Shown one piece after another: positions 431 through 64,000 of a DNA stretch of 64,000 nt. The DNA lies in the NCBI GenBank assembly GCA_025617745.1, contig CM046859.1, positions 24,986,006 through 25,050,005 of the forward strand, read 5' to 3'. Below the pieces are notes generated by a model. It was not told the origin of the DNA, made no database searches, and worked only from the letters and a program-made list of their open reading frames with translations. Every line of letters begins with the position of its first letter. The first letter of the stretch is position 1. The position numbers and the translations under genes are program-made. The DNA is from Heliocidaris erythrogramma (Eukaryota > Echinodermata > Echinoidea > Camarodonta > Echinometridae).

Positions 431-2261
431 TTAATCCATCTCCTCGACGGTGGGCCCTCCACAGCCGGATGACGACGAATTCGCTTGTGGACCAGCGTGT
501 AGTTTAGCCATGATGGGAGAGCATGTCTTCTGCAACTCTTCCAATTTGTATGATAATTCCTCCTTGTCCGCCAAAGTGTTGGTCTCCATCCAAGTGATGA
601 CATCATCAACTGTTTTGGTTACAACATCCTTGTCGCTGGAGCTAAGCTTGTTGTCTGCTGAAGCGTCATTGACGGCGGACTTGACGTTGAAAGCGTAGCT
701 CTCGAGTTGGTTCCTGGTGGCGATGCGCTCGCGTTGAGCATCATCCTCGGCCTTGAATTTCTCAGCATCGCTGATCATGCGATCGATGTCATCTTTGGAT
801 AGCCTACCACTGTCGTTGGTGATGGTGATCTTGTTGCTACGACCCGTACTCTCATCCTTTGCAGTGACGTTCATGATGCCGTTGGCGTCGATCTCGAAAG
901 AGACTTCGATCTTGGGGATGCCTCGTGGTGCAGGAGGGATGCCGGATAACTCAAACTGGGCAAGTCGGTTGTTGTCCTTGGTCATAGCTCTTTCCCCTTC
1001 GAATACTTGGATGGTGACGGCTGGCTGATTGTCAGCGTAGGTGGTGAAGGTATTTGCTGCCTTGGTAGGGATTCTAGTATTCCTCTCAATAAGCTTTGTC
1101 ATCACACCACCTGCTGTCTCGATGCCAAGAGAGAGAGGAGCCACATCGACTAGAAGAACCTCCTTGATTTCTTCGCTCTGGTCGCCAGAGAGGATGGCGG
1201 CTTGGACAGCGGCACCGTAGGCGACAGCTTCATCAGGATTGATAGACTTGTTGAGATCCTTGCCGTTGAGGAACTCCTGCAGAAGTTTCTGGATCTTGGG
1301 AATACGTGTCGAACCACCGACAAGCACCACGGTGTCGATCTTCTTCTTGTCGATTTTAGCATCGATGATAGCTCTCTCTACTGGTTCCAAACACTTTCTG
1401 AAGAGATCTGAACACAGCTCCTCGAATCTTGCTCTGCTGACGCTTGAGTAGAAGTCGATTCCTTCGTAAAGAGAGTCTACTTCGATGTTCGCTTGAGCAC
1501 TGCTGGATAGTGTTCTCTTTGCTCGTTCTGCTGCTGTGCGAAGGCGGCGAAGCGATCTGGGGTTGGACTTCATGTCCTTCTTATGCTTTCGCTTGAATTC
1601 CTCGGCGAGATGATGGACAAGTCTATTATCGAAGTCTTCTCCTCCGAGATGTGTGTCACCAGCTGTCGACTTCACTTCAAAGATCCCGTCATCAATGGCC
1701 AGGATAGAGACATCGAATGTGCCACCGCCGAGATCAAAGATGAGGACATGTTGCTCTCCCTTCAGCTTCTTGTCGAGTCCGTAGGCCAGGGCAGCAGCAG
1801 TGGGTTCGTTGATGATCCTGAGGACTTTGAGCCCTGCGATCACACCTGCGTCCTTCGTCGCCTGTCGCTGTGCATCGTTGAAGTAAGCGGGAACAGTGAT
1901 GACGGCATCGCTGATCTTCTGGCCAAGGTAAGCCTCGGCTGTCTCTTTCATCTTGGTCAGGACCATGGAGCTGATTTCCTCTGGTGCCATTGTCTTCTTT
2001 TCTCCGAGGTACTCTGCCTGCAGCATCGGCTTGCCTCCTCGGTTGATGACGTTGAATGGCCAATGCTTCATGTCAGATTGAACAGTCTCGTCTGTGAATC
2101 TTCTCCCAATCAGACGTTTGGCATCAAATACCGTGTTCTTGGGATTCCTGTCATGAAAAGTTAAGACAATTAATAAATTGTTGTCAGTTGTAATTATTAA
2201 TTTTTACGCGTAATGTTGTTAGAGTTGTTAGGACTAATTAGGGAGCCCCGGCATCCCTCAA

Positions 2262-3645: not shown

Positions 3646-3982
3646 TATTAGACTGTTCTCGTTTCTTGGAGCACGAGCGTTGCGGATTATCGTGCTTCCT
3701 TGCACGAATCATGTGGCACGTCGAGTGCAAATGAATTTGGTTTTTACCAATCTATACCATCGTCGTCTGCTATGTCGAGACGATGTGAAGCCTATAGCTC
3801 GGCCGCTTGTGTACAATCAATGTTTTTAATGGCAGTTCGAGCATTGAGTTAGAGGATCATACTGGAAAACGGGGTTTTAAATAATATACATTCAATATTA
3901 TTATGCATCTGAAATGCAATAACTGGCGTCGAATCTAGGCTTATAATTTAATAATATAATAATTATATAACAATTTTTTTTT

Positions 3983-4194
3983 TTGCCATACCTTCAAAAT
4001 TCGCTCAGTACGGGGTTATGGGGGTCCACTTCCCCTCCATAATTCCCTGACAAGCAAAAAAAAAAAAAAAGGTCTTCCATTCTAAAAGGGGGGGGCACAA
4101 TCGAGAAAATGGCGGATCGTCTATGGTCAAAATGCATACTTCTCTTCCAAAAGGGGGGGGGGGGCACCGGAAGTGCCCCCTGGATCCGCCAATG
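3983..4194 (-). mobile_element. Poly-G MITE (GGCGGATCC family), 5'-truncated copy
   Basis: Keeps one terminal inverted repeat, CCTGGATCCGCCAATG, at 4179-4194, and the family's internal blocks: a 'ccctccataattccctgacaag' type block, an A-run, and G-runs followed by GCAC. The other end is missing. Confidence 0.7.
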
Positions 4195-6380: not shown

Positions 6381-6822
6381 GAATTATTACACGAGAAGCT
6401 AATTTCAGAACCGGGCAGAAGAAGCCGGTTAAAAGGCAAAAGATTGCAAAATATCACGAGAACATTTTATTCAGTACTTGAGTGAAACGGACGAGCTGTC
6501 TTTATCGTGAGTTCAGGTGAACATTAATTGTGAGGAGTGAACATTGATTTTTGTGACTTTGTCAACGTTAAGTTTTGTTGTTGCAGCGCCTTGTTCGATT
6601 CAATTAACAACCCACCACATCGCCTCTTCGCTTCACGAGTCGTCCAGCTGTCTGATCAGCAGTGAGCGAGTTTGCCTTTGCCATTTTTAACAGCTCTTGT
6701 TCGAGAGTGAAAGATCTGCCTCAAAGCCATCTGAAAGAGGAAAATACTCTTATTACTTAGAGAAAGGGATATTTTTTCATCTTTGGTTGTGATAGGAAAA
6801 ATAGCTGTCACCTATGACCAAA

Positions 6823-9800
6823 ATGGGGAAAGATTATTACAAGGTGCTGGGGGTATCCAAGGATGCCTCTGACGATGAAATCAAGAAGGCATATCGGAAG
6901 ATGGCACTGAAGTATCACCCTGACAAGAATAAGTCAAAGGGAGCGGAAGAAAAATTCAAGGAAATAGCAGAAGCATATGAAGTTTTGAGCGACAAGAAAA
7001 AGAAGAGCATTTACGACAAATACGGCGAGGAAGGTCTAAAGGGAGGTGCAGGTGCCCCACAAGGAGAACAGGGAGAGAACTACCATTGGACATTCCATGG
7101 CGATCCCAATGCAACTTTCACAAGCTTCTTTGGTGGCAACAACCCATTTGACATGTTCTTCAATGTTGGTGGCATGGGTGGCCAGCAGAACACTCGATTC
7201 AATTTTGGTGGCCAACCTGAAGCAATGGACATAGATGATGATTTTGGGTTTGGCGGTGGGTTCCCTGGAGTCCACCAAACACGAAGTAACAGTCAGAGGA
7301 AACGCCAAGATCCACCCGTACACCATGACCTCAGGGTCACGCTAGAGGACATTTTCCGTGGTTGCACGAAAAAAATGAAAATCAATCGTCGAGTATTGAA
7401 TGAAGATGGCCGAACAACAAGGACTGAGGACAAGATTCTTGAAATTAATGTGAAGCCAGGATGGAAGGAAGGCACAAAAATCACATTTCCCAAAGAAGGA
7501 GATCAAGGCCCAAAGAAGACTCCAGCAGATATTGTGTTCACCCTCAAAGACATACCACATTCTGTGTTCAACAGAGATGGCACCAACTTAATCTTCAAGG
7601 CTAAAATTCCACTAAGAGATGTAAGTATTTCAGCTTCCTGATTTTCCAAATTGTAAGTTTTAATTGATCTTCAAATTTTATGTTTATTGACATATTTCAT
7701 CTTTCATGTTGTTTTCCTGATAATCCTACTGGGACAAGTCCAAGCTATTTTGTCCCATATTCTACCGACCCCATCTAAGATTTTAGTACATCTGATCAAA
7801 CTGATGACGCTATCAAGCTGATCCTAGAGTTTATATGAGATGAAATATCAAGTAAAATCATATTTATTTCACTTTATGTTAATTCACAATTCCATAATAC
7901 TTTGTATTATAACCTTGTACATTGGATGAGTGGTGACGTGTGTGGGATATACTGTACCTGGGACTTGCCCACTCTGAATCTGAATCTGTTCTGTTCCTGT
8001 TCCTGGTCCTGATCCTGATCCCGATCCTCGAAGTGGGATATTGTTGACCAATAAGGACGTTAGCTGGCCCGTTAGCTTTTGAGAGAGTGTGTAATATATT
8101 TAGTACAGTTATAGTCCCATTACTTTACAATTGCATGGAGAGACTATATTTATACTGCTCCTGTGGATTACATTCCAGAGTTTGTCATCATATCTGTTTT
8201 ATAGTCATAAAGATAAATTTTTAATTCTTTCATTTCATATCATACCCTCAAAATGTTAATGTTATGTACAGGTATAACCTACATTAGAATTTGTATCATC
8301 TTGGAAGCTTTACACCATTATCTGTTATTTGTAAATAGTATGCCTCTCACCAGGGAGAGTGCAAAATAAGCCAGTTAGTAAAATACAATTTGCGCATGTT
8401 CAGATGAAGGTCTTTTGTACCGAGTACAATTGACCTTTGTACGCTTCCATTTTTTACACACCACGATGCGTGCATCAGTATGATTTTACATGTTAAACAA
8501 GTAGCGTGTCCACCAAAACCAGTGGGCGTGCGCATACAAATTTGGGTCATTTCAGGGTCATTTGTACCATGAACTATTACGAACCAGCTTATTACATCTC
8601 CCTCCTCCAAGTTTATATGATGCACTTGTAATGATCTGTATGCCATATATTTCGCATACAGATTATTTCACGATTTGGGACTAGGTACATGTAGGGGAAT
8701 TCGCGAGGGTTTAATTTCGTGATTTTCGTGACATTTTTGTTACTATAAACAGCTATATATTGAAGAGGACTGACATGCGAAAATCGTGAAAATAAAACCA
8801 CCGCGAAAATAACCACTTATACAGTACTTATTGTCTCCTTGGAGCCAGAAGGGTGTTAACTAATAGCACTTTACATACATGTACATGTACATGTAGCCTT
8901 AATGCCCTTTTGGTTCTCAGCAGATGATGTATGATCTACTTCTGCGTAAGCGTCAGTAGATAATGAGTCGAATTCAAAACACCAAACCCATCACCTGCTT
9001 GGCATTTTAGCTCTTGTGGTGCTGGCGAAGCAATTCCTCGTAAAAGCAATTTGTGTTCCAGAATGTGGGACCACGGCTAGCTAGCAAGGCATGTTGACTG
9101 ACAGCTATCCAACTCAATTTTGTGTAGAAGTCTGAAGGGTTAAGACAAGTTGATGGTCAGGCCACATAGTGGGGGAAGCTAACCCCTTCACTGTTGATGA
9201 GGGTTTCCATTCGATCAGTCCCTCTTTCCAGGGTCTGTGAAATATTTCATAGTTGTCTGAAAGGCCAGGGTGCAGTGGAATATTTAGAATATTCCAATTC
9301 AACTTTTAGAATTTGTGTAGGCTTCACTGTAATCAGTATTTTTAACAGCCACACTGACAAGTGCAAATGTAGTCTGTATCAGGAACATATGAATGGGAAA
9401 TCTTTGCTATATATCTGGCTGTTCTTTCATCATATTATTTCACTCTTAATCCTTTAATCATTTAATCATTATATCTTACATATGTATACCCCAGTGATGA
9501 AATGAGAAACATGCAGCTTTACAAATATAAGCTACTCTACATGTGCTACATGTTGTAGTGTGGATCATACACTGGATATTTCATATTTATCATCTAAAAT
9601 GAACACGCCTTCAAAATTTATCTGGGTGACCCAAATTTGCTTTGATAGTACATTCTGATTCGCTTCCCAAAAGAACAAATTTCTTTTGCCATGCATGAAG
9701 AATCCTGTCCTTAGCATTATAGCATACAGGTACATACATGTATACATATTATAGGCCTACATTGTATATTTTGTATTGTGTAAAAGCTCAATTTTTGGAG

Positions 9801-31600: not shown

Positions 31601-34600
31601 GGATTGAACAATTTCATTGGCATCTCTGAATATGCCAAAAACAGGTATTACAACATAGAATAATTCTCAAATTCATGGGATAAATTTAGAGGAACATCCA
31701 TGCAATTCATGTACACTAAAATGTGTTTAATACCAAAGTAAAAGTTAAAGAATGTGTCAGGCCATCAGGCAAAGACTTCTATAAGACATAGCAATAAAAG
31801 GGGAGAGATGTTTTCTTCCTTAATTCTTCAAGATGACCTACCATGTTTCATAGTTCCAAACACGCACGGATCTGTCTGTAGAGCAAGTTGCTACTAGAGG
31901 TTTCCTGATGCATACATCTAGGCCAGTGATGACATCAAAATGGAACGGCTGAGATAACACTTCAAATGTTGCCTGGTCTCCCTGCACAAGAACAAGAATT
32001 GAATAGGAGATGCCATTAACAATCAATCAGAGAACATATGTTGCTCTAAATTTAGCAATGTGAATAAAAACGTGTGGAACCACAAAAAATTCATATAAAT
32101 TCTGAGTTTTTCCAGAAAACAACAAAAATAGTAATACTAATCGTCAATTAAACAATTTTTAAATCAAAATCTACTTCAGTGGCATGGATTTTGACTACAT
32201 AACACATTCGCAAAAAGAATTATTTAAAAAAAAAGAAGAAAATATGATCCTGTGTCAACTTGAAAGGCTATGGTAGTGGCTCACAAAAAGAGAAATATAT
32301 TTACCTTGCCAATTTCTGCACTGGACAATGTGATGGCATAGAGCTGATTTGTGAGTGTGCTAGCAACTAACGTTTCCTCAGATGGACTGATAGTAAGAGT
32401 TCTTATCTCATGGCTCTCTGCTCTGCTGTCATCTGCTCCTAGAGCATTGTTGACAATCTGGAAGGTAAGGATGATGCATTAGATTAAAGTGAAGGTTTTG
32501 GTGGAATATTCTCACTAAGCAATTAAAAAGTAATTACCGGTACAGCTTTGTGAGGTTCCATTTACCACAATGTGTCATAGAATATGCAAATTGATAGAAA
32601 AGAAATTGCAGGTAATAGTCTGAAATGAGAATTTGTACAGAGAATGAACAAAACAAAATCAAGAAAGAAAAGAATAATTTAGAAAAAAAAATGAAATATA
32701 AAATCAAAATCTGAGTAATATGTTGTATATCTAAAGTATAAAAGAAAGAAACCCTGCTCACGCAGTAGTAAAATATTACCTTGAAAATCAAAACCAAGAG
32801 AAAAATCATCAGCCTACACCTATTGATTATCAAATCTGCAAATAAAATTCAAATGTGACCCCATTAGAGATGCAAATGATTGTTATGTAATTACTCTGAT
32901 TTCTCTGGACTTCTTGTATGAGTCCTTGTCCTCAGTTTTCTCATAGACGACTACAACCCCATGGCCAGCAGAGCAGGCAAATCCTTTGGATGATGAGACG
33001 ATGGCAGTGATCTGGGGTGTGACAGCTCCTGTCCCCTCATTCTCAGCGATGGTGCCCATAGCAGATCTATGATATGAACGAATTGTGTTTTCAGTTCATC
33101 AGTGATCCCAGAACTCATTCTATTTTGGGTTAAACAATATCTTCTAGTTTTCTTTGGAATATGAAAGTCTTTTAACAGTAGCATTGAAATCTTGTTCCAA
33201 TTCATGACTACAAGACTAAAGTATAATATCATGGATGAATTATAGAGTCACAAAATAGGTTAAGTCAAACTTACAAATACTTGTTAAGAGTAATTTATTT
33301 AGAATAAAAGAATCCTCAATTTGTTGATATCATGAATGCCATTAGTCTTAATCAAGATAAAGTGAAATGAGACTTTGTTCATATCAAATTTTACTAAATA
33401 GATTTACCCCCCCCCCCACCTCTCGCCCCAAAAAGAAAAACCATAGTAATAAAGTATTATAGATATATTTTTATTTAGCTCATCAGCAAATGAATAATTC
33501 AATAAAAACACACATTAAACACCATGAGAAAACTTGGAAAGCTGAAGTGTCCTACTTTTTAAAATGATCATGCTCATCATGGAATTCGATATACAAGGGT
33601 TTCCTGAGATAAATGGTTACTTACTTATCAGCGTCTTGCTTGGAGCTGACTTGGACCACCATCTCATTCCTAAGTTCTCCAGCCTCAAAGAGCAGGAGCT
33701 TTCCCATGTCCGTGCCCACAATCACCCTCTCATCAGAGACCCATGCTTGCGAGAGGTAGTTCTGAGGCTCAAGCTTCTGGAAGGCAAACTGCTTGAGGTT
33801 ACCCTCGCTGTAGCGGTACAGCTTGAAGATGCCATTTCCAACAACGCAGATTTGGGTGTTGTCTTGGGGATTGAATGATACCTAGATAAGAAAAAAAAAT
33901 CAATTTAGTTTAGATACATCGCAATAGCAATGCCTTGCAAATATAAATGAATTACTATTGAAGAAGCTATCATAAGAGTCTGTCTACATTTTTTTTTAAA
34001 GACATGAAATTTGAGGAGTGGTAATTCAAAGCTTTACATTGAGATGTGAAGATCCTAGTTTAAATAGACATAACACTGGATTTGGAGTATTTGTTATTAT
34101 GAAAATTAATTATCCTAGTTAAATCCAATGAGCTACACTTATTCGGTCACAAATCTACTTTCATGACAAAACGGCTTAGAATTACATTTTCCCATTATAC
34201 AGAATTTTATAAGAGAGAAAAAAAATGTCTTTATTATATTAGAGACTGAGTAACAAACTCTAAATTATTCCATTAATCTTTAAAAAGTATATCAATTATA
34301 AAAGTATGTCTGCTTTACTTAAGTGTCAGCAATAAACCTTACACCAATGTAAATTCCATGTAATATGTAACTTCAATGATATCAATAATCTGTCTCATTT
34401 TTTGTCCAACTTATGAGCCACTAAAATGGATTCTAATTTTTTTACCTGGTAGACATCATTATTTGCAGGATTTGTAGTCTTTGTCACAGCCATCACTTTG
34501 GATTTTTCCCAGGTCCAATAGACCAAGGTCCAGTCTGGCCTGCCCCCCTGGGCAATCAAATACTTGGAGTCTGGAGAGAATGCCATGCTGATGACTTCGT

Positions 34601-34916
34601 TTGATTGGATGTCGGTCGAGCTCAGGGCTTTCCTTTTCCTCAACGAGTGGAGATCGTAGATGGTGATCATCGCTTTGTCTGCCCCTCTTTCTGCAACCGC
34701 AATGTACCTTCTGTTGGGGCTAACGCATGTGGCAGAGAATCCGGAGCTCTTGTCGGATCCAGGTATGAAGCGCTGTGTCTTCTGATCAATGTTGTAGAGG
34801 ATGATGTTGCTACCACAAGGGTAGACCACTGTCTGTTCGTCCACATAGCTGATGTTGCCGCAGACATCCCCCTTCAAGCCAAATACATGGCGGGGCTGGG
34901 AGAGTGCTATTGACAT
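22646..34916 (-). CDS. CFAP57: Cilia- and flagella-associated protein 57 (WDR65)
   Basis: Axonemal protein needed for assembly of a subset of inner dynein arms (known for FAP57 in Chlamydomonas and CFAP57 in mammals). Eighteen coding exons: 34446-34916, 33625-33881, 32895-33066, 32305-32457, 31842-31981, 31235-31400, 30661-30774, 30092-30304, 29385-29558, 28680-28844, 27982-28231, 27260-27450, 26492-26665, 25849-26007, 25059-25319, 24216-24347, 23598-23741, 22646-22969. All have GT-AG borders and compatible phases, giving 3,660 nt and 1,219 residues, against 1,250 in human. WD40 propellers fill about residues 1-660 (for example [30 protein letters not shown]). A long coiled coil follows (about 675-1130, rich in E/K/Q heptads such as [20 protein letters not shown]), then a short tail. 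The start [16 protein letters not shown] aligns with the family N-terminus. It looks fully intact. Exons 8 and 16 begin with GTG, which can mimic internal starts. Confidence 0.97.
23381..23460. mobile_element. 80-bp TTAA-bounded palindromic MITE in CFAP57 intron
   Basis: TTAACCCGTTG at the left and CAATGGGTTAA at the right, in the intron before the last coding exon. The TTAA ends suggest a target duplication. Confidence 0.55.
23480..23516 (-). repeat. (TTTCA)n tract, probable LINE or SINE 3' tail
   Basis: Pentamer tandem TTCAT repeats ending near TTTATTTTCC. Similar tails occur at 19376-19410 and, in the other orientation, at 57068-57096. Confidence 0.4.
24930..25050. repeat. (CAT)n microsatellite in CFAP57 intron
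   Basis: Interrupted CAT trinucleotide array ending 9 bases before the donor side of exon 15. It creates spurious open frames of poly-His or poly-Met on both strands. Confidence 0.95.
26060..26280. repeat. AGTCAAATAAAGAGTCACAT minisatellite
   Basis: Irregular tandem units of about 28 bp built from AGTCACATAAATCATT and AGTCAAATAAAG blocks, in the CFAP57 intron upstream of exon 14. Confidence 0.85.
26671..26760. repeat. 23-bp tandem array next to CFAP57 exon 13 acceptor
   Basis: Four units of a 23-bp repeat, each containing the palindrome TGAAATATTTCA. The array begins 6 bases from the exon boundary at 26665, so it replaces the usual polypyrimidine tract. Confidence 0.9.
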
Positions 34917-34953
34917 ATTTGTACTTTTTTTTCTGTATCTTTATGTTGTGTTT
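34917..34953 (-). promoter_or_regulatory. CFAP57 5' UTR segment behind a splice acceptor
   Basis: On the minus strand a pyrimidine-rich TTTTTTTCTTTCCAG ends at 34954, 37 bases upstream of the ATG. This looks like a 3' splice site, implying a non-coding first exon further right (beyond 35 kb). Confidence 0.5.
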
Positions 34954-38115: not shown

Positions 38116-38298
38116 TGTCTAGCTCTATGAGTGATAGGGACATTGATTAAGCTCACTCGATGCCTATGGGAGACTTCCGTCTGTCTTAGAGGAGAACCTC
38201 TAAAGTCAGAAAATGTTATAAAACTCCTCCAAACAGACAGATTTTTCTGTCTATTTTGGTACCAGCTAGAATAGTAGAAAGATCATCATCAAATTTAA

Positions 38299-38425
38299 CC
38301 ACTCAAAGGTACACGCCATTGCCGACTGTGTAGTAACGCAGCCAACACACATCCCATACCTAAACTGCATCACTGTGCATTTTTGGCTATATTTAATTGA
38401 AACTCATATATTGCAGTTTACTTAA
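38299..38425 (+). repeat. R1 repeat, left fragment interrupted by a transposon
   Basis: Begins CACTCAAAGGTACACGCC and matches 44115-44240. It continues at 43099 on the far side of the 4.67-kb element. Confidence 0.85.
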
Positions 38426-38756
38426 AGGTCCCCTTTTATGGAATTACAAAGGAACTTCATTTAATAGACTTTTCTACTGTGAATTCAGATCTGTCAATCA
38501 TATTACCTGAATTCCATTCATTAATCTGTAACCTTGAAAATAAAAAAATAACTGGGAACGCCCCTAAAAATTTTGGAAAATCGGTCCAGCGATCGATGAC
38601 GTCATGTGACGTCACCCACAGAACGCTTGACTCACACAAGCTGGATCGAGTATCGATGTGTGTGTTATGGCTATTGAGCTTCGTGTAGATCCCTTCGACT
38701 TCGTGCCATTTCAGCACTTCATTTTAGCTTTTTAAAGACAAAATCCTACATCAACG

Positions 38757-40148
38757 ATGGCATCATCTTCTTCAGCCAGGACACTTATTCAGGATCAGAT
38801 ATATCTGATTTGGAGCATCAAGTCCCAGAAGAAATTGAAGAGGAATTAGGGGCCCGGCCGTATACTATGTTTGACTTTGAAGTTTGAGCCAGACATGGCT
38901 GATTCTGGGCAAGATTCTGATGATGACAGAGACGTCCCTGATTTTAATAACGGAGAGGATATCGACGGGAGACTTTGGAATAACAACTGGTAATTATTTT
39001 TTGATAATAAATTACCGATTAAAGTTTTATGAATCTTGTTTACGCTTGCAAATTGCCCGAGCTGATACTTCGCTGATCGAGGCAGTGAGCTCGATGTGCG
39101 GCCGGGGTACCGTACACGCCGCGCCGTTTGGTTGTTCGCCTGCTGACCCTGCCTGGACTTGCGCTTGGGCAGTTTTACTGGTGCATGGGGTGGTAGCGTT
39201 TGATTCTAGTAAATTCTAACATTGATTTCCAGAAAACTCTTAGCTCTCCTGTTATCTTGCTTGTTTTCTTTGTGCTGCTACACTAAGTAAGTGTAGGTAC
39301 CGTTATAGTTGACAATAGATATGATCTTCTTCTTCTTCTTCTCCACCCAGGGTTTCATCCAGTGTGTCTGCATGGAGCGGTATGTGATGGAAACTGCTTA
39401 CTATTTGTATCGACAGCAGTATGGCGGACAGGCAAGGCAGGATGCAACTGAAAATCAGTGAGTACACCATATTTTTTGTTTTAATCCTTACTGCAGTATT
39501 CCTGTATTATAAAAGCAGTTTGGATGCAAAATGCCAATTTGGCTCCTTATGAAATTAATATTACGATATTCTATAAAAGAAAATAATGTTTTAGCCTTAA
39601 TGTAAATAGAGGAAGATTATCTTCTATTGTTTATTTGTGAAGTTCAAAGTAAAAGTTACCTCACTATCACCTACATCATAGACTACACTGTGCATTGTTT
39701 TGAAGTTGTCTAATCATAGTTTCCTTTGTACTCTTAAAAAAAAATCTTTTATAGGAAAGCCAGGCAGGGCAGGACGTGTTCCTCTCCCATCTTGTGCCGT
39801 GACAAGAATCCGTGCAGCATTTCCATCAGAACCATTGGCGGATCCAGGGGGCACAGCCGGCCCGGTCCCCCCCCCCCTTTTGGAAGAGAAGTATGATTTT
39901 TTTTGTTGCTTGTCAGGGAATTATGGAGGGGAAACTGGACCCCAATAACCCCTTACTGAGCGATTTTTGAAGGTTTGGCGAATTTCTTTTTTTGCCCCCC
40001 CCTCCCCCCCCCCCTCACTGAGCGACTTTTCGAGAAGCAGGCGAGACCAGAAAAATACGGGTCTACCTTTTGACAAACTTTCATTTTTGTGCCCCCTCTT
40101 TTACTCAATCCTGGATCAGAACAGAACAGGGGCTTTGAAGAGGCGTAG
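38757..40148 (+). pseudogene. Broken gene resembling the P2X7 cytoplasmic (ballast) domain
   Basis: Three exon-like blocks: 38757-38989 (acidic, with DISDLEHQVPEEIEEELG and RPYTMF, ending GRLWNNNW before a GTAATT donor), 39351-39457 (GFIQCVCMERYVMETAYYLY, flanked by TTCTCCACCCAG and GTGAGT) and from 39755 (RVPLPSCAVTRIRAAFPSE). These match the order seen in invertebrate proteins with a P2X7 C-terminal ballast-type domain. There are defects. The first block carries a one-base frame change near 38793 and a 13-bp tandem duplication near 38870-38890. The zinc-binding exon with the CxC and CC cysteines is not visible between the first two blocks. A MITE interrupts the last exon at 39833-40114. Beyond the MITE the frame resumes as QNRGFEEA and stops at 40146-40148. 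Identification rests on remembered family features, so it is moderately sure. Confidence 0.6.
39833..40114 (+). mobile_element. Poly-G MITE inserted in the ballast-like pseudogene
   Basis: Starts CATTGGCGGATCCAGG and carries the family's poly-C block and TCAATCCTGG end; the right terminus is shortened. ATCAGAAC flanks it at 39825-39832 and 40115-40122, an 8-bp target duplication as in hAT elements. Confidence 0.8.
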
Positions 40149-41514
40149 ACCTACATACAATTTTGCTGTTATCTTTTCCCCCACCTTGTCAAGATCTATG
40201 TTTACAGAAAATATATGTTTTACTTCCACCTTATTACTGAGATTTTTATTACTGTTCTAAGATAGATTTTCAAAGATATTTTTTTTAAATTGGAAATATT
40301 CCCTGCATTTTACCTCTTTAGGGTATTTTCTTTTCAAAGTTTACTGTATGTATATATATTTTTTTAACCTTTGCAAAAAAAATCAAAAGGGAGGGCAGCT
40401 CTGTGGAACTTTAATTTAAGCTATGCAACCATTATTCTCATATTTTTTTTTACTGGGGCTTGGATATGACATGCACAAATCTCAACATTATGCAAAGGTG
40501 ATAGTAGAATTGAACATTTTAAAAATATTTATGTATCAGAACTGTTGTTCCATCAGTGTAAAAATTTACACAAAGTCATTATTTGAAAGGAAAAAATACT
40601 CAGTACTAATGACTGGCAAACATCTTTTATTTAATCGGGTCATTCATGTGATCATCATTATTGTTGCTTCACATCATATTTCTTTTCAAATTGACATTAT
40701 TTTTTCTACAGATTTTTTTTTCTTCTTTCATTTGATTTATTGTTGTATTTATTATTATGTACTTATATATGTTGGTCTAGTTGTTAACTTGATAACGCTT
40801 AGATAGCATATACATTTATCATGTATATAACTGTTTATAAGAAATGTTAAAAATGCTAGTACGTCATTGTTCAGTCTATCTTTTCATGATATTTAATTCC
40901 TATACATGGATATCAGTTTCCCTGAAAGTTGGGTTTATTACATGAGGGTGTGCTACACTGACAATGTGGTAAAAATTTTATTGCTGTTTTTGCTTCAAGT
41001 ATCAGAGGAAAAGAGGAGTCTAGGAGGCTTATTTTGAATATTCACTTTCACTGTCAAATAAAATTGGAATTGGGTAACTGAGTTCACATCTAAGTATTTG
41101 CCCAGAGCATTTTTTGTAATTGATGTTGTAAAGATGCATGTATCTCAGTCAAGAATGATAACTCTATTGTTAATGGCATATGAGGTCTGTTATTTTTTAT
41201 GGCATTTGTTGTTTAATTTGTTAATGAAACACACTTTGGAAGCTAATCAGTTTTGTTTGTTTTGTTTTGTTATTTTTTTTTTCGGGGGGGGGGGGTGGGC
41301 ATTCTATTGAATTTTTGATGTTCAATTGTAAGACAACCATTTCCTGGATACAACATCTGTATCTACATTTTTCCAGAAGTAATAATATATTTCAAATCAA
41401 TTGAATATTTTTGTCATATCTGGAAGAGCTCAAACACATTTACTATGCAAGGTTTGTCGTGAATGAAACTAACAATTGAAAAGAAAGGTATGAGTGCGGG
41501 AATGAGATCAAAAC

Positions 41515-42025
41515 CAACAATTGGCAGAATGGAAAAAGAGAGATAAAAAGTTGAGAGGAGATGTGTGTAATTGGAGAATATTGGGCAAAAAGAAGGAGAA
41601 AGGGAGACAGAAAGCACAAGAGAAGAAATAGTGAAAAAGAGAGGGAATCACTGGGGGAAAAAGGGAGAGATAAAAAAGTTGAGGGAAGATGTGTGAAAGT
41701 GGAGAATTTTGGGCATAAAGAGGGAGAAATGGAGGGAAAGCACAAGGGAAGAAATAGAGAGAGAGGGAATCATTGGGGGAAAAAGGGAGAGATAAAAAAG
41801 TTGAGGGAAGATGTGTGAAAGTGGAGAATTTTGGGCATAAAGAGTAAGAATTGAAGTGAAAGCACAAGGGGAGAAATATAGAGAGAGGGAATCATTTGGG
41901 GAAAAAAGAGAAAAAGTTGAGGGAAGATGTGTGTAAGTGGAGAATTTTGGGCATAAAGAGGGAGAAAGGGAGGGAAAGCACAAGAGAAGAAATGGTGAAA
42001 GAGAGAGAGGGAATCATTGGAAAAC
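41515..42025. repeat. 122-bp purine-rich tandem array
   Basis: About 4.2 units with period 122 bp (GAGGGAATCA recurs at 41641, 41763, 41885 and 42007). The plus strand is almost pure purine, giving open frames on both strands that are not genes. Confidence 0.9.
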
Positions 42026-42203
42026 AGATTTTCTGTCAAATGAACTACATGTATAAGGTAGAGAAGTAGGAATCAACCTGTACCTGTGATGTATACCCCT
42101 TTTTCCTGCCGAAGGAGGGGGGGGGGGGGGGGTTGTAGGTTGAAAATTGCCCGTTACATTTTCACTACATTCAGGGTGGTAACAAAAATCAATATTAAAT
42201 ATA

Positions 42204-42377
42204 CGGTGGAAACTTAGTATAACGAGGTCCTTGGGACTATTAAAATTACCTGGTTAAATCCAGAATCTTGTTATATCAGTTTAAAAAAAAAAGAATATAA
42301 AGAGTTGAGACCAAAATATTGCCTTGTTATATCAGGAATATTGTTGTATCAGACCTCTTTATACTGAGTTTCCACTC
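42204..42377. mobile_element. Tc1/mariner- or pogo-like MITE with TA target
   Basis: Ends TGGAAACTTAGTATAACGAG and the complement of TGGAAACTCAGTATAAAGAG, flanked by TA at 42202-42203 and 42378-42379. The 174-bp element is nested in the 4.67-kb transposon. Confidence 0.7.
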
Positions 42378-42545
42378 TACCATGATAAACATTTTTATAA
42401 CACTCTTTATGGAGAAAGATCTTTTTCTTCATCAAGAACAAAAAAAAAAAATTTTTAATAGTAAAGACCAATTGAGAGAGGTGCTTGTGAGGTAAAGCTC
42501 AGAGTCGCCAAATTTCATATTGATACATGTATGATCAAACTTGTT

Positions 42546-42782
42546 TCAGGGACGGCCTCTTCTTGATGCCATACGCAGCCCCGTGCTATCGACGAAGTCC
42601 TCCGCACAAAAGTGCTCGGAGCACACAACACTGTGCTCACTCGGCCCCTTCCAATGGGCGCGAGTTAATTTTACTTTTGCGGTCCATTTCCTTCTTATAT
42701 TTGGGTCTTTAGGGAATAAATGTAGACTGACACCCTCCTTTGTGGTGTTACTGCAACCTGCAACAACGCAGCGTTGCGGCAT
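42546..42782 (-). CDS. THAP-domain protein (transposon-borne)
   Basis: A 78-residue ORF with a near-complete C2CH THAP zinc finger: CVVAGC near residues 5-10 and CSEHF near 54-58, with the conserved Trp and a late FPKD-type block between them. THAP domains bind DNA and occur in P-element and Kolobok-type transposases and their domesticated relatives. It ends at a stop right after SRRGRP. It is short of the usual AVPTF box, so it may be the first exon of a longer protein or a truncated remnant. It reads inward from the right terminus of the 4.67-kb element. Confidence 0.7.
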   Translation of the reverse strand: MPQRCVVAGCSNTTKEGVSLHLFPKDPNIRRKWTAKVKLTRAHWKGPSEHSVVCSEHFCAEDFVDSTGLRMASRRGRP

Positions 42783-43098
42783 ACTTTTTAAGAGGTGGTT
42801 TTACGAGGTGGTATACACAGCAGCAAGTTAGTTTGCACATGTAATACATAGGCAATATTGTAAACAAGCATCGGCAATGTCGGTTTGTGACGTCACACGT
42901 CAATCATGCTCGCGGAACGAGAATTCAGGGTTTAAAAGGGGGCGGAGCTTAAGAGACTGTTTTGGACATGAATACCTGGGGGAAATATTATTTTAAAAAT
43001 ATTTTGATACGTATTTATTGCAAACGGATGTGATTTTTCAATTTAGATGAGATGCATGTACAAAATACCAAGAATTATAATTTCATAAAAGGGGACCT

Positions 43099-43335
43099 TT
43101 AAATCCAAATACTTATGTTGAATAATTTTGTGACCTTTGAAGAGGGTTTCCTGAAATTTTGGGTCCTTTTTGTCGATAACTGCTATCGAGACTGTCCCGT
43201 CAGCATCCAGTTTGTATTTTTCACGATTATGATGAAGGGAGCCCTCAGCGCTCGTAGTAGTACCGGCGCGATCGGTTCGTCGATCTCCTACGAAGACCTG
43301 GAAGGGCCAAACTGACGACGTAAAAAAATAAAAAA
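43099..43335 (+). repeat. R1 repeat, right fragment
   Basis: Continuation of R1 after the transposon. It matches 44240-44430 and, inverted, 44580-44740. It holds a short frame, unrecognised, ending SSISYEDLEGPN, also present in the inverted copy. Confidence 0.8.
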
Positions 43336-44093
43336 TATTACGTACGTACGTAATATTTTTTATTTTTTTACGTCGTCAGTTTGGCCCTTCCAGGTCTTCG
43401 TAGAATAGCTTGTGTGCGTAACATTCTGCGTACGTATCTACGGTGCGTAACCATGTAGAGCGGCCTCACTAGTGCGCAACATACTGAGAGCAGTCGTCAT
43501 CCGTATGGAGGTGTGGGTAACAAGTACCAAAAAGAGGGCTGTAAATGTAAGTTTTTATAACTTTCTACATTTTGTATCTTAACGAACTGATAACTTAAAA
43601 TCTAAAGAATGATACTTAAGTATCAGTTTGCCCACAAAAACTTCCATTTCAAACAAAATTACATCTGTATCCCCAATACCCAATCTGATCCTAATCACAT
43701 CAGCAAGCAATGGTCATATTGACCATTAGGATCATATACATGTGTGTATACTGGGTATTGGGGATACAGATGTAATTTTGTTTGAAATGGAGGTTTTTGT
43801 GGGCAAACTGATACTTAGGTATCAGTCTATACATATGAATTTACAAGTTCGTTAAGACACAAAATGTAGAAAGTTATAAAAACTTACATTTACAGCCTTG
43901 TTTTTGGTAGTTGTTACACAGACATCGATACGTATGACGACTGCTCTCAATATGTTGCGCACTAGTGAGGCCGCTCTACATGGTTACGCACCATAGATAC
44001 GTACGCAGAATGTTACGCACACAAGCTATTCTACGAAGACCTGGAAGGGCCAAACTGACGACGTAAAAAAATAAAAAATATTACGTACATACG
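43336..44093. mobile_element. Foldback element with about 350-bp arms
   Basis: Reads as a hairpin: the left arm from ACGTACGTAATATTTTTTAT through the CTTGTGTGCGTAAC block pairs with the right arm ending in the complement. The centre lies near 43718 at the palindrome AATGGTCATATTGACCATT. A smaller perfect palindrome with about 58-bp arms spans 43284-43402 at the left edge. Confidence 0.85.
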
Positions 44094-44114
44094 TAATAAT
44101 ACTATGTAGGCCTA

Positions 44115-44912
44115 CCCACTCATAGGTACACGCCATTGCCGACTGTGTAGTAACGCAGCCAACACACATCCCATACCTAAACTGCATCACTGTGCATTTT
44201 TGGCTATATTTAATTGAATATCATATATTGCAGTTTACTTACATCCAAAGAATTGTATTGAATAATAGATGATTAAAACTTACCAGGTTGTTTTGTGACC
44301 TTTGAAGAGGGTTTCCTGAAATTTTGGGTCCTTTTTGTCGATAACTGCTATCGAGACTGTCCCGTCAGCATCCAGTTTGTATTTTTCACGATTATGATGA
44401 AGGGAGCCCTCAGCGCTCGTAGTAGTACGTATTATTATTACGTACGTACGTAGTAATTATTACGTACGTACGTACATAGTATTATTACTATCGTACGTAA
44501 TATTTTTAATTTTTTTACGTCGTCAGTTTGGCCCTTCCAGGTCTTTGTAGGAGATCGACGAACCGATCGCGCCGGTACCAGTACGAGCGCTGAGGGCTCC
44601 CTTCAGCATAATCGTGAAAAATACTAAATGGATGCTCTGACGGGTCTCAATACTACGATAGGTGTTATCGAAAAAAAGGACCCAAAATTTCAGGAAACCC
44701 TCTTCAAACTCAAAGGTCACAAAACAAACTGGTAAGTTTTAATCATCTATTATTCAACATAATTAGGCCTAGGCCTAGTTATATTTAAGTAAACTCCAAG
44801 ATATGGGTTTCACTTAAATATAGCCAAAACTGCACAGTGATACATTTTAGTACCGTACTCACTATTGCCTGCGTTACTACACAGTCGGCAATGGCGTGTA
44901 CCTATGAGTGAT
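44115..44912. mobile_element. R1 foldback element
   Basis: CACTCATAGGTACACGCC at the left and its complement at the right. Arms of about 320-400 bp meet at an ACGTACGT-rich centre (44425-44510). The left arm holds the near-empty site of the 4.67-kb transposon. Confidence 0.85.
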
Positions 44913-48839: not shown

Positions 48840-49218
48840 CAGGGGCGGATCCAGGATTTAGTAAAAGAGGGGGCACAAAAATGAAAGTTTGTGAAAAGGT
48901 AGACCCGTATTTTTTTGGTCTCGCCAGCTTCTCGAAAAGTCGCTCAGTGGGGGGGGGGGGGGGGGGGGGGGGGGTAGGGACGAAAAAAAAAATTTCCGCC
49001 AAACCTTCAGAAATCGCTTAGTAAGGGGTTATGGGGTCCACTTTCCCTCCATAATTCCCTGACAAGCAAAAAAAAAAAAAAAAAAAAAAAAAGGTCTTCA
49101 CTCTAAAAGGGGGGCACAATCGCGAAAATGGCGGATCGTCTATGGTAAAAATTCATACTTCTCTTCCAAAAGGGGGGGCACGGGCCGGCTGTGCCCCCCC
49201 CCCCTGGATCCGCCAATG
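48840..49218 (-). mobile_element. Poly-G MITE, complete copy with target duplication
   Basis: Ends CAGGGGCGGATCCAGG and CCTGGATCCGCCAATG. CTATAAT stands on both sides (48833-48839 and 49219-49225). This is the best full-length copy, 379 bp, with internal G-runs, an A-run and no ORF. Confidence 0.9.
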
Positions 49219-52229: not shown

Positions 52230-52561
52230 AAGGGGCGGATCCAGGGGGGGGGGGGCACTTCTGGCCCCTGCCCCCCCCCCACTTTGGAAGAAAAGTATGC
52301 ATTTTGTGCCCCCTTTTAGAATGAAGACCTTTTTTCTTTTCTTTTTTTATGAAGGGGAAGCTGGACCCCCCATAACCCCCCCCACCCACTGAGCAAATTT
52401 TGAAGGTCTAGCGAAATTTTTTTTGTTGTTGACAAACGCCCCACCCCCCCCCCCCCCCGAACGACTTTTCGAGAACTGGCGAGACAAACAAAATATGGGT
52501 CTACCTTGACAAACCTTCATTTGTGTGCCCCCTCTTATACTCAATCCTGGATCCGCCCCTG
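52230..52561 (+). mobile_element. Poly-G MITE, opposite orientation
   Basis: Starts AGGGGCGGATCCAGGG and ends CCTGGATCCGCCCCTG. Internal blocks match the copy at 48840-49218 in reverse. A target duplication is not clear. Confidence 0.85.
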
Positions 52562-54902: not shown

Positions 54903-55227
54903 CAGTGGCGTCAGGGGGGGGGGGGGACAAAACTTTCGAGGAAATGATTAGCGGAAATTGTTTGGAGGGAGATCCATATGTTTTTCTTCTCGTCATCCCT
55001 TGAAAAGTCGCTCAGTGGGGGAGGGGGGGGGGGGGGGGGGGGGTATGGGGGTCCAGTCTCCCTCCATAATTCTCTGACAAGCAAAACAAAAGTTTTCATT
55101 CTAAAAGGGGGCGGGGGGGGGGGGCACAATCGATAAAAGGGCGGATTCTCTACGGTCAAAATGCATACTTTTCTTCCAAAGGGGGGGGGGGGGCACGGGC
55201 CGGAAGTGCCCCCTGGATCCGCCAATG
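54903..55227 (-). mobile_element. Poly-G MITE with mixed termini
   Basis: The right end is CCTGGATCCGCCAATG, as in the main family; the left end CAGTGGCGTCAGG resembles the CAGGGGCGTC sub-family. It looks like a recombinant or diverged copy. Confidence 0.75.
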
Positions 55228-55439
55228 GACGTTATCATTGTTCTTGGTGCTTCGTGATACCTACATTCTTTCCAACTGGAGCAACTAATTTTTAATTTAA
55301 GTTGAATGAAACATGCTGAGATAATTATTTCTGCAAGACAGTGTAAAATATGATTAATAATGTATAATTTACACATACCTTAAAATAGGTTATACTGGCT
55401 GTAGCAAACTTTTAGCTTGTCATCACCAAAGCATCGAAT

Positions 55440-55850
55440 TTCACTTTGTTTATTAAAAACTTTGTTTATAAAAAGTTGTGTTGTGTCCGTAATTCTCTTA
55501 AATAATATATCTTATGTATTATGTATGTTTGGGGACAAACCTTTGATAGACCCTTGGCCTTTGTCCCTCCACATTTATATATTTTCTGTTTATTTGTAAC
55601 TATGTCAATCAGGGGCGGATCTAGCATTTAAGGATATAAGGGGCACACAAATGCATGCAGGTGTGCCAAATTTGGTCTCGAAAAGTCGCTCAGTGGGGGG
55701 GGGGGGGGTATACTGTACTTATCATTGTTGTTGAATTTTTCATATTTCTATTATTATTAATATTTCGGTATATTTCCAATTGTATTCTATCACTGTCATT
55801 TTTATCGAATGTGGAATAAATTTAATTTAATTCAATTGAAAAAAAATACT
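55440..55850 (+). mobile_element. Probable LINE 3' tail, with a MITE fragment inside
   Basis: An untranslated region ending in AATTTAATTTAATTCAATTG short repeats. It is interrupted at 55610-55708 by a truncated poly-G MITE starting CAGGGGCGGATCTAGC. No ORF. Confidence 0.4.
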
Positions 55851-62186: not shown

Positions 62187-62392
62187 CAGTGGCGGATTTA
62201 GGGGGAGGGCACATCCGGCCCGTGCCCCCTCCCCCCTTTGAAAGAAAAGTATGCATTGTGCCCCCTTTTTTCGATTGTGCCCCCTCCTTTTAGAACGAAA
62301 AACCTTGTTGCTTGTCAGAGAATTACTGAGGGAAACTGGGCCCCCATTAACCCCCCCCCCCCCCCCGAGCGAATTTTTGAGGTCTGGCGAAA
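62187..62392 (+). mobile_element. Poly-G MITE, truncated
   Basis: Starts CAGTGGCGGATTTAGG, runs through the poly-C block, and ends abruptly before the second terminus. Confidence 0.75.
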
Positions 62393-62404: not shown

Positions 62405-64000
62405 CAACTAGTTCATTTTGAAACAAAAAAATCAAGATAATGATTCCTACATTCCCCGTATGGTTTAGCACACGTTTCATGAGCACCAAGGCACTATATG
62501 AGCACCAATGCGCGATTTTGTACTTGTTTGAAAACAGTCATCAAGATTATAATCAGTACAAATCAAAGTCAGTGTTTAGATGAAATGATATTAAAGACAA
62601 TACTGAGACGTAAATAAAGTTCATTTAAAGCAAAATTTTCAGGATAATCATTTCTACAATCCTCGTAGGGTTTGGCACACGTTTAATGAGCACCAATGAG
62701 CACCAATGCGCGATTTTGTTTGAAAACAGTCATCAAGATTGTAATCTAAGAAAATCAAAGTCAGTGTCTAAACAGTCATCAAGATTGTAATTTCAGAAAA
62801 TCAAAGTCATTGTCTAGATAAATAGATGCTAAAGACAATATTGAGACGTAAATAAAGTTCATTTGAAACATAATTTTCAAGATAATCATTCCTACAATCC
62901 TCGTAGGGTTTAGCACACGTTTCATGAGCACCAAGTCACTATAATGCACTAGCGGATCCAGGGGGGGGGCCGAATCGGCCGCGGCCCCCCCTATTGGCGT
63001 GGAAAAAAAGAAAAAAAGAGGGGGAAGAAAAGAAAAAGAAAAAAGAAGGAGAAGGGGAAGTATTTTTGAAGGTTTGACGACAATTTTTTTTTGTTCGTAC
63101 CCCCCCCCCCCCCCCCACTGAGCGACTTTTCAAGAAGCTGGCGAGACCGAAAAATACGGGTCAACCTTTTTGAAATTTTTTTTTTTTGTTCCTACCCCCC
63201 CCCCCCCCCCCCCCCACTGAGCGAATTTTCGAGAAGCTGGCGAGACCGAAAAAATACGGTTCTACCTTTTCAAAAACTTTCATTTTTCGGCCCCCTCTTT
63301 TACTCAATCCTGGATCCGCCCCTGATAATGAGCACCAATGCGCGAATTTGCCCACTTCGATGCCCACTATAATAGCCACATGTAATAAGAAGGCGTGCGC
63401 GCGCGTGTTGCATGAAGCTCATAAATGTGTCCGACTTGGTGCTCAAATAGTCTCTACCTCTCTATACACGTTAAAAAAATCTTATTTAAAGATCAGTGCT
63501 GACGAAAAAGCAATTATCTGTTTCCTACAGGCCTATTAATAAAACATTTTACGTTTTGTCCAAGAATAGGCCTATGATTTCGTCAGAAATTGAATGCAAT
63601 TATATTTTATTTTAATAGCATGAAGATAAAAAAAAATAAAAAAAATAAACAATGACTAGGAATATGTAATATTTTGAAAGCGGTCTCACTGACTTTTTTT
63701 CCCGGATACATGTAAAAACATATATAATCGTCTATGATCATAGGTTCAAGTTATGAGGAAATCATATTCTGGGAAAATCATTGACGGCTTGTGATGAGGA
63801 TATGGGACGTTACAAATTCATGACAAAGTGGCCAATTTGTCTAGTGATTTTCTTTGTTTTCATTAGCTTTCAGTGTCATAAAGATTCATAACTTCATTTT
63901 GTTCGATTTTACTCGAACAGAGTCGAACTGCTTTATTCTGTTTTGATTTGTCTGGGACCGGACTTGCCGCTGGGAAAATGAAGAGGCACACACACACACA
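62405..64000. repeat. Right arm of the ~10-kb inverted repeat (runs off the window)
   Basis: Holds about 2.3 tandem copies of the 225-bp unit (62405-62940), a MITE (62947-63324), and the outer segment 63331-64000, which is the reverse complement of 53985-54650. It is still matching when the sequence ends. Confidence 0.9.
62947..63324 (+). mobile_element. Poly-G MITE with documented empty site
   Basis: CACTAGCGGATCCAGG at the left, CCTGGATCCGCCCCTG at the right, ATAATG on both sides (62941-62946 and 63325-63330). The left arm of the inverted repeat has a single ATAATG at the same place. Size 378 bp. Confidence 0.9.

Follow-up and report, generated by a model that had tools for sequence, protein, structure and literature searches.

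A 4,673 bp insert lies at positions 38426-43098 of the window, by which we mean the whole 64,000-nucleotide stretch of Heliocidaris erythrogramma DNA analyzed here. Its left terminal inverted repeat (38426-38449, plus strand, AGGTCCCC...) matches the right one (43075-43098, minus strand) in 22 of its 24 bases, and TTAA target-site duplications flank the insert on the left (38422-38425) and on the right (43099-43102), as an earlier note on this DNA had claimed for both the inverted ends and their flanks. With TTAA demanded outside both arms and an arm spacing of at most 10 kb, the best of 20 dinucleotide shuffles reached 17/24, and none of the 20 attained 22/24. The actual window holds 18 such TTAA-flanked inverted pairs, the element's own included, so the count of pairs is not unique to the element; several of the other 17 fall within palindromic host repeats. 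The termini read AG...CT, that is, 5'-RR...YY-3', in agreement with the rule for Kolobok termini, and the 4-bp TTAA duplication is likewise the one expected of Kolobok. Of the piggyBac combination, TTAA with ends that are not 5'-RR, the element shows the TTAA together with AG...CT ends. Long terminal direct repeats of the KolobokP type (about 450 or 660 bp) were not seen: no direct repeat links its two ends among the best 20 of 42 repeat families or in a blastn comparison of the element with the window.

The element sits inside a local repeat, of which two further, uninterrupted copies lie nearby. The second copy (44113-44429, plus strand) reads TTAC at the target, while the third (44575-44910, minus strand), which is inverted, has a single TTAA there. 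The insert-free second copy described in the earlier note is thus indeed uninterrupted, but its target is TTAC rather than TTAA; taken with the single unchanged TTAA of the third copy, it indicates that the empty site is real. A useful feature of this element is that its target repeat is present three times, in one case with a single TTAA and no insert. The left flank (38296-38424, 129 nt) is 97% identical to 44113-44241, and the right flank (43126-43263, 138 nt) is 100% identical to 44291-44428. Aligned across the entire site, the interrupted and second copies show 10 differences in 292 bases plus one 25-nt gap; against the third copy, which is inverted, there are 38 in 287 bases, with more gaps. 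Over longer stretches, blastn gives only 82% and 80% identity to the two uninterrupted copies. The bases immediately to the right of the target are different in all three.

Because the interrupted repeat is close in sequence to the second copy and the genes of the element seem to have lost whole parts, those genes may have been defective before the insertion took place. This argument is weakened by the third copy, to which identity is lower, and by the 82% and 80% over longer stretches; gene conversion could likewise give the insertion a young look. Just beyond the right flank, nested palindromic host repeats include a spacerless, perfect inverted repeat of 58 nt (43288-43403), and the segment 43202-43420 folds far better than its 200 shuffled versions (z -17.4). 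Farther along, between 54365 and 63612, several distant TTAA-flanked inverted 24/24 matches suggest a very large inverted repeat.

Reading inward from the right end of the element is a frame that encodes a THAP domain (42549-42782, minus strand), 78 aa long and followed by TGA, with a Pfam THAP score of 54.6 bits against a cut-off of 23.9; a THAP reading frame entering from one end had been predicted and is confirmed. It has C-x4-C...C-x2-H spacing; the AVPTIF box is absent, the frame ending before it. THAP is the sole family listed in a six-frame Pfam scan of the element at E<=1, a scan in which no catalytic transposase domain was found, and so no counterpart of the Kolobok DDD/E transposase with its C/DxxH signature; the lack of such a domain is expected for a non-autonomous copy.

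The putative KolX-like remnant consists of three open pieces that read inward from the left end. The putative N-terminal piece (38895-38990, plus strand) is an acidic open frame ending in ...GRLWNNNW, and the putative middle piece (39351-39458, plus strand) is an open frame that begins GFIQCVCMERYVMETAYYLYRQQYGG...; we presume by eye that these two belong to KolX. The C-terminal, P2X7-ballast-like piece (39754-39834, plus strand) ends in ...GRVPLPSCAVTRIRAAFPSEP and has a sub-cut-off match to P2RX7_C. The two genes described for the element are thus not intact: the THAP frame stops after 78 codons, with no catalytic domain found, and the KolX-like gene is fragmented.

No Pfam match was obtained for the N-terminal piece, and the middle piece matched only Atypical_Card (E=0.2). 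For the last piece, P2RX7_C is the sole family listed among 24736 models, both with the full 88-aa ORF (E=0.074, 13.4 bits) and with the ORF trimmed to 24 aa (E=0.016, 15.6 bits); the match spans 16-25 of the 192 profile positions, and both scores fall below the Pfam cut-off of 23.5 bits. The ballast-like gene proposed earlier is thus weak, only its last piece resembling P2RX7_C, at 13.4-15.6 bits. P2RX7_C does not appear in the six-frame scan of the element at E<=1. Composites of the KolX pieces gave P2RX7_C at E=0.11, behind DUF591 at 0.084 (99 aa), and at E=0.14 (81 aa), while a 144-aa composite and a reversed 63-aa composite had no Pfam match. A phmmer search of the 99-aa composite against PDB did not recover P2X7; its single match was weak and unrelated.

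Against a profile built from three P2X7 segments, the last piece ranks first of the 2111 window ORFs of at least 20 aa, but with E=0.41. The motif LPSC....IR..FP, a pattern written post hoc, occurs once among these ORFs, in the last piece; a similar pattern, likewise written after the piece had been seen, has no occurrence in 60 simulated windows. KolX has 7 conserved cysteines, and inspection of the open frames by eye showed no zinc-cysteine stretch. Among viral contigs, a search for relatives of the KolX pieces gave 25 pattern matches, none of them confirmed, and the ends of the element had no exact match.

Where the last KolX piece ends, a dispersed repeat begins (39832-40117), which may be MITE-like. 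Partial copies of it occur elsewhere in the window, at seven locations: 3982-4194, 48848-49218, 52234-52553, 54966-55228, 55676-55707, 62187-62391, and 63062-63316. The element also contains a tandem array of a 122-nt unit repeated 4.0 times (41531-42020); in the blastn comparison of the element with the window, only this array and the dispersed repeat were matched. Searching the window for the end pattern with two mismatches allowed gave 5 matches, with 4.68 expected, and two of these are the element's own ends.

Near the two ends of the element are three TGACGTCA palindromes, which are CRE-like. Two of them (38597-38604 and 38607-38614) start 171 and 181 bp in from the left end, and the other (42888-42895) ends 203 bp from the right end. 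They account for three of the five such palindromes in the window; none of 1000 simulated elements contained three, the simulated maximum being one. The palindromes may serve the two genes as promoter elements.

The components of this element have counterparts in print. In Kojima and Bao 2022 (PMC9587614), the Kol0 lineage of Kolobok is described as encoding a transposase and KolX, a protein similar to residues 476-595 of human P2X7 that adopts the ballast fold; P2X7 is reported there to have arisen by fusion with KolX, its tail being KolX-derived. For Kolobok, the same paper gives a TTAA target and 5'-RR ends, in distinction from piggyBac; the word THAP is absent from its main text. According to PMC6004289, THAP and DDE domains are typical of Kolobok transposases, and the first of these is present in our element. 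In addition, Rump 2020 (PMC7016195) reports an Ixodes ORF that combines THAP (printed as 'TAHP') with ZCD, the ballast-type domain. Together, the KolX, Kolobok THAP, and Ixodes reports mean that a THAP-ballast pairing is already in print, contrary to the suggestion in the earlier note of a pairing "not well described".

Comparison with these systems shows both likenesses and differences. With Kol0 (the Kolobok-1_XT type), the element shares TTAA duplications, 5'-RR ends, and the remains of a transposase-type and a KolX-like gene; it differs in that it has no detected catalytic transposase domain, its KolX is broken, and no zinc-cysteine stretch was seen. The Xenopus XKol full-length elements and T2-MITEs (PMC6004289) have the same AG ends and TTAA flanks. 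XKol transposases contain THAP and DDE, and the T2-MITEs are presumed to be non-autonomous members. The ten full-length XKol copies in Table 5 of that paper measure 6.8-13.9 kb and include transposase coding sequences, whereas our element is 4.7 kb with no catalytic part detected. Metazoan ZCD/ballast proteins (PMC7016195) share the ballast-type domain, once together with THAP, but in Ixodes the two occupy one ORF, whereas here they are two opposed gene remnants in one transposon.

We consider it quite probable that the element is a non-autonomous, gene-decayed Kolobok copy in an animal genome, most likely of the Kol0, KolX-bearing kind. The TTAA, the AG...CT ends, and the THAP domain argue for Kolobok, in keeping with the earlier assignment. 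The full reading rests on the ends, the TTAA flanks, the uninterrupted repeats, the THAP exon, and the short sub-threshold P2RX7_C motif. Counting against it are the lack of a detected catalytic transposase domain on which membership could be judged; the sub-cut-off KolX match, the zinc-cysteine stretch that was not seen, the worse scores of the longer composites, the E=0.41 against the P2X7 profile, and the failure of the six-frame scan to recover P2RX7_C and of the PDB search to recover P2X7; and the TTAC of the second repeat copy with the differing bases to the right of the target. On the Kolobok reading, a transposase from an intact relative would have recognized the ends of the element and moved it by cut-and-paste into TTAA. 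The THAP piece would be what remains of the DNA-binding part of the old transposase, and the left gene the remainder of KolX, with a putative accessory role. That the ballast-like gene could be a transposon-encoded accessory protein, as had been suggested, fits this evidence, and KolX is so described in PMC9587614. As one more degraded copy, the element agrees with the connection already published between the KolX of Kolobok and the ballast of P2X7, and does not extend it.

On another reading, the element is a Kolobok but the resemblance of its left gene to KolX arose by chance or the sequence there is unrelated. The scoring part is a short motif that stays under the cut-off, no profile supports the first two pieces, the composites score worse, and the six-frame scan misses P2RX7_C. 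We nevertheless regard this as rather unlikely, given that P2RX7_C is the one family of 24736 models listed for the last piece, that this piece comes first of 2111 window ORFs against the P2X7 profile (though at E=0.41), and that one Kolobok lineage is known to carry KolX (PMC9587614).

Still less probable, in our view, is a TTAA element of piggyBac type that encodes a KolX-like protein without cysteines and has captured a THAP exon. Such an element would share the TTAA target, and PMC9587614 mentions that a protein resembling the C-terminus of KolX, but missing most of the 7 cysteines, occurs in a few piggyBac families; no cysteine stretch was seen in our element either. This explanation is opposed by the ends, whose AG...CT form (5'-RR, YY-3') marks the difference between Kolobok and piggyBac in that paper, and by the usual occurrence of THAP in Kolobok transposases (PMC6004289). 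We think it hardly credible that a trans activity of the two remaining products, a lone THAP domain and a form of KolX lacking zinc cysteines, keeps the shortened element in existence, for instance through repression by binding at the ends of intact relatives.

The window has no Rfam matches at gathering scores and no tRNA genes. An HSP70 reading frame (434-2203, minus strand) covers profile positions 56-597 of 599, and a reading frame with a DnaJ domain (6805-7638, plus strand) lies a few kb from it. A further reading frame at 34398-34940 on the minus strand has WD40/beta-propeller matches, all under the curated cut-offs, and presumably resembles the start of a CFAP57-type cilia protein.
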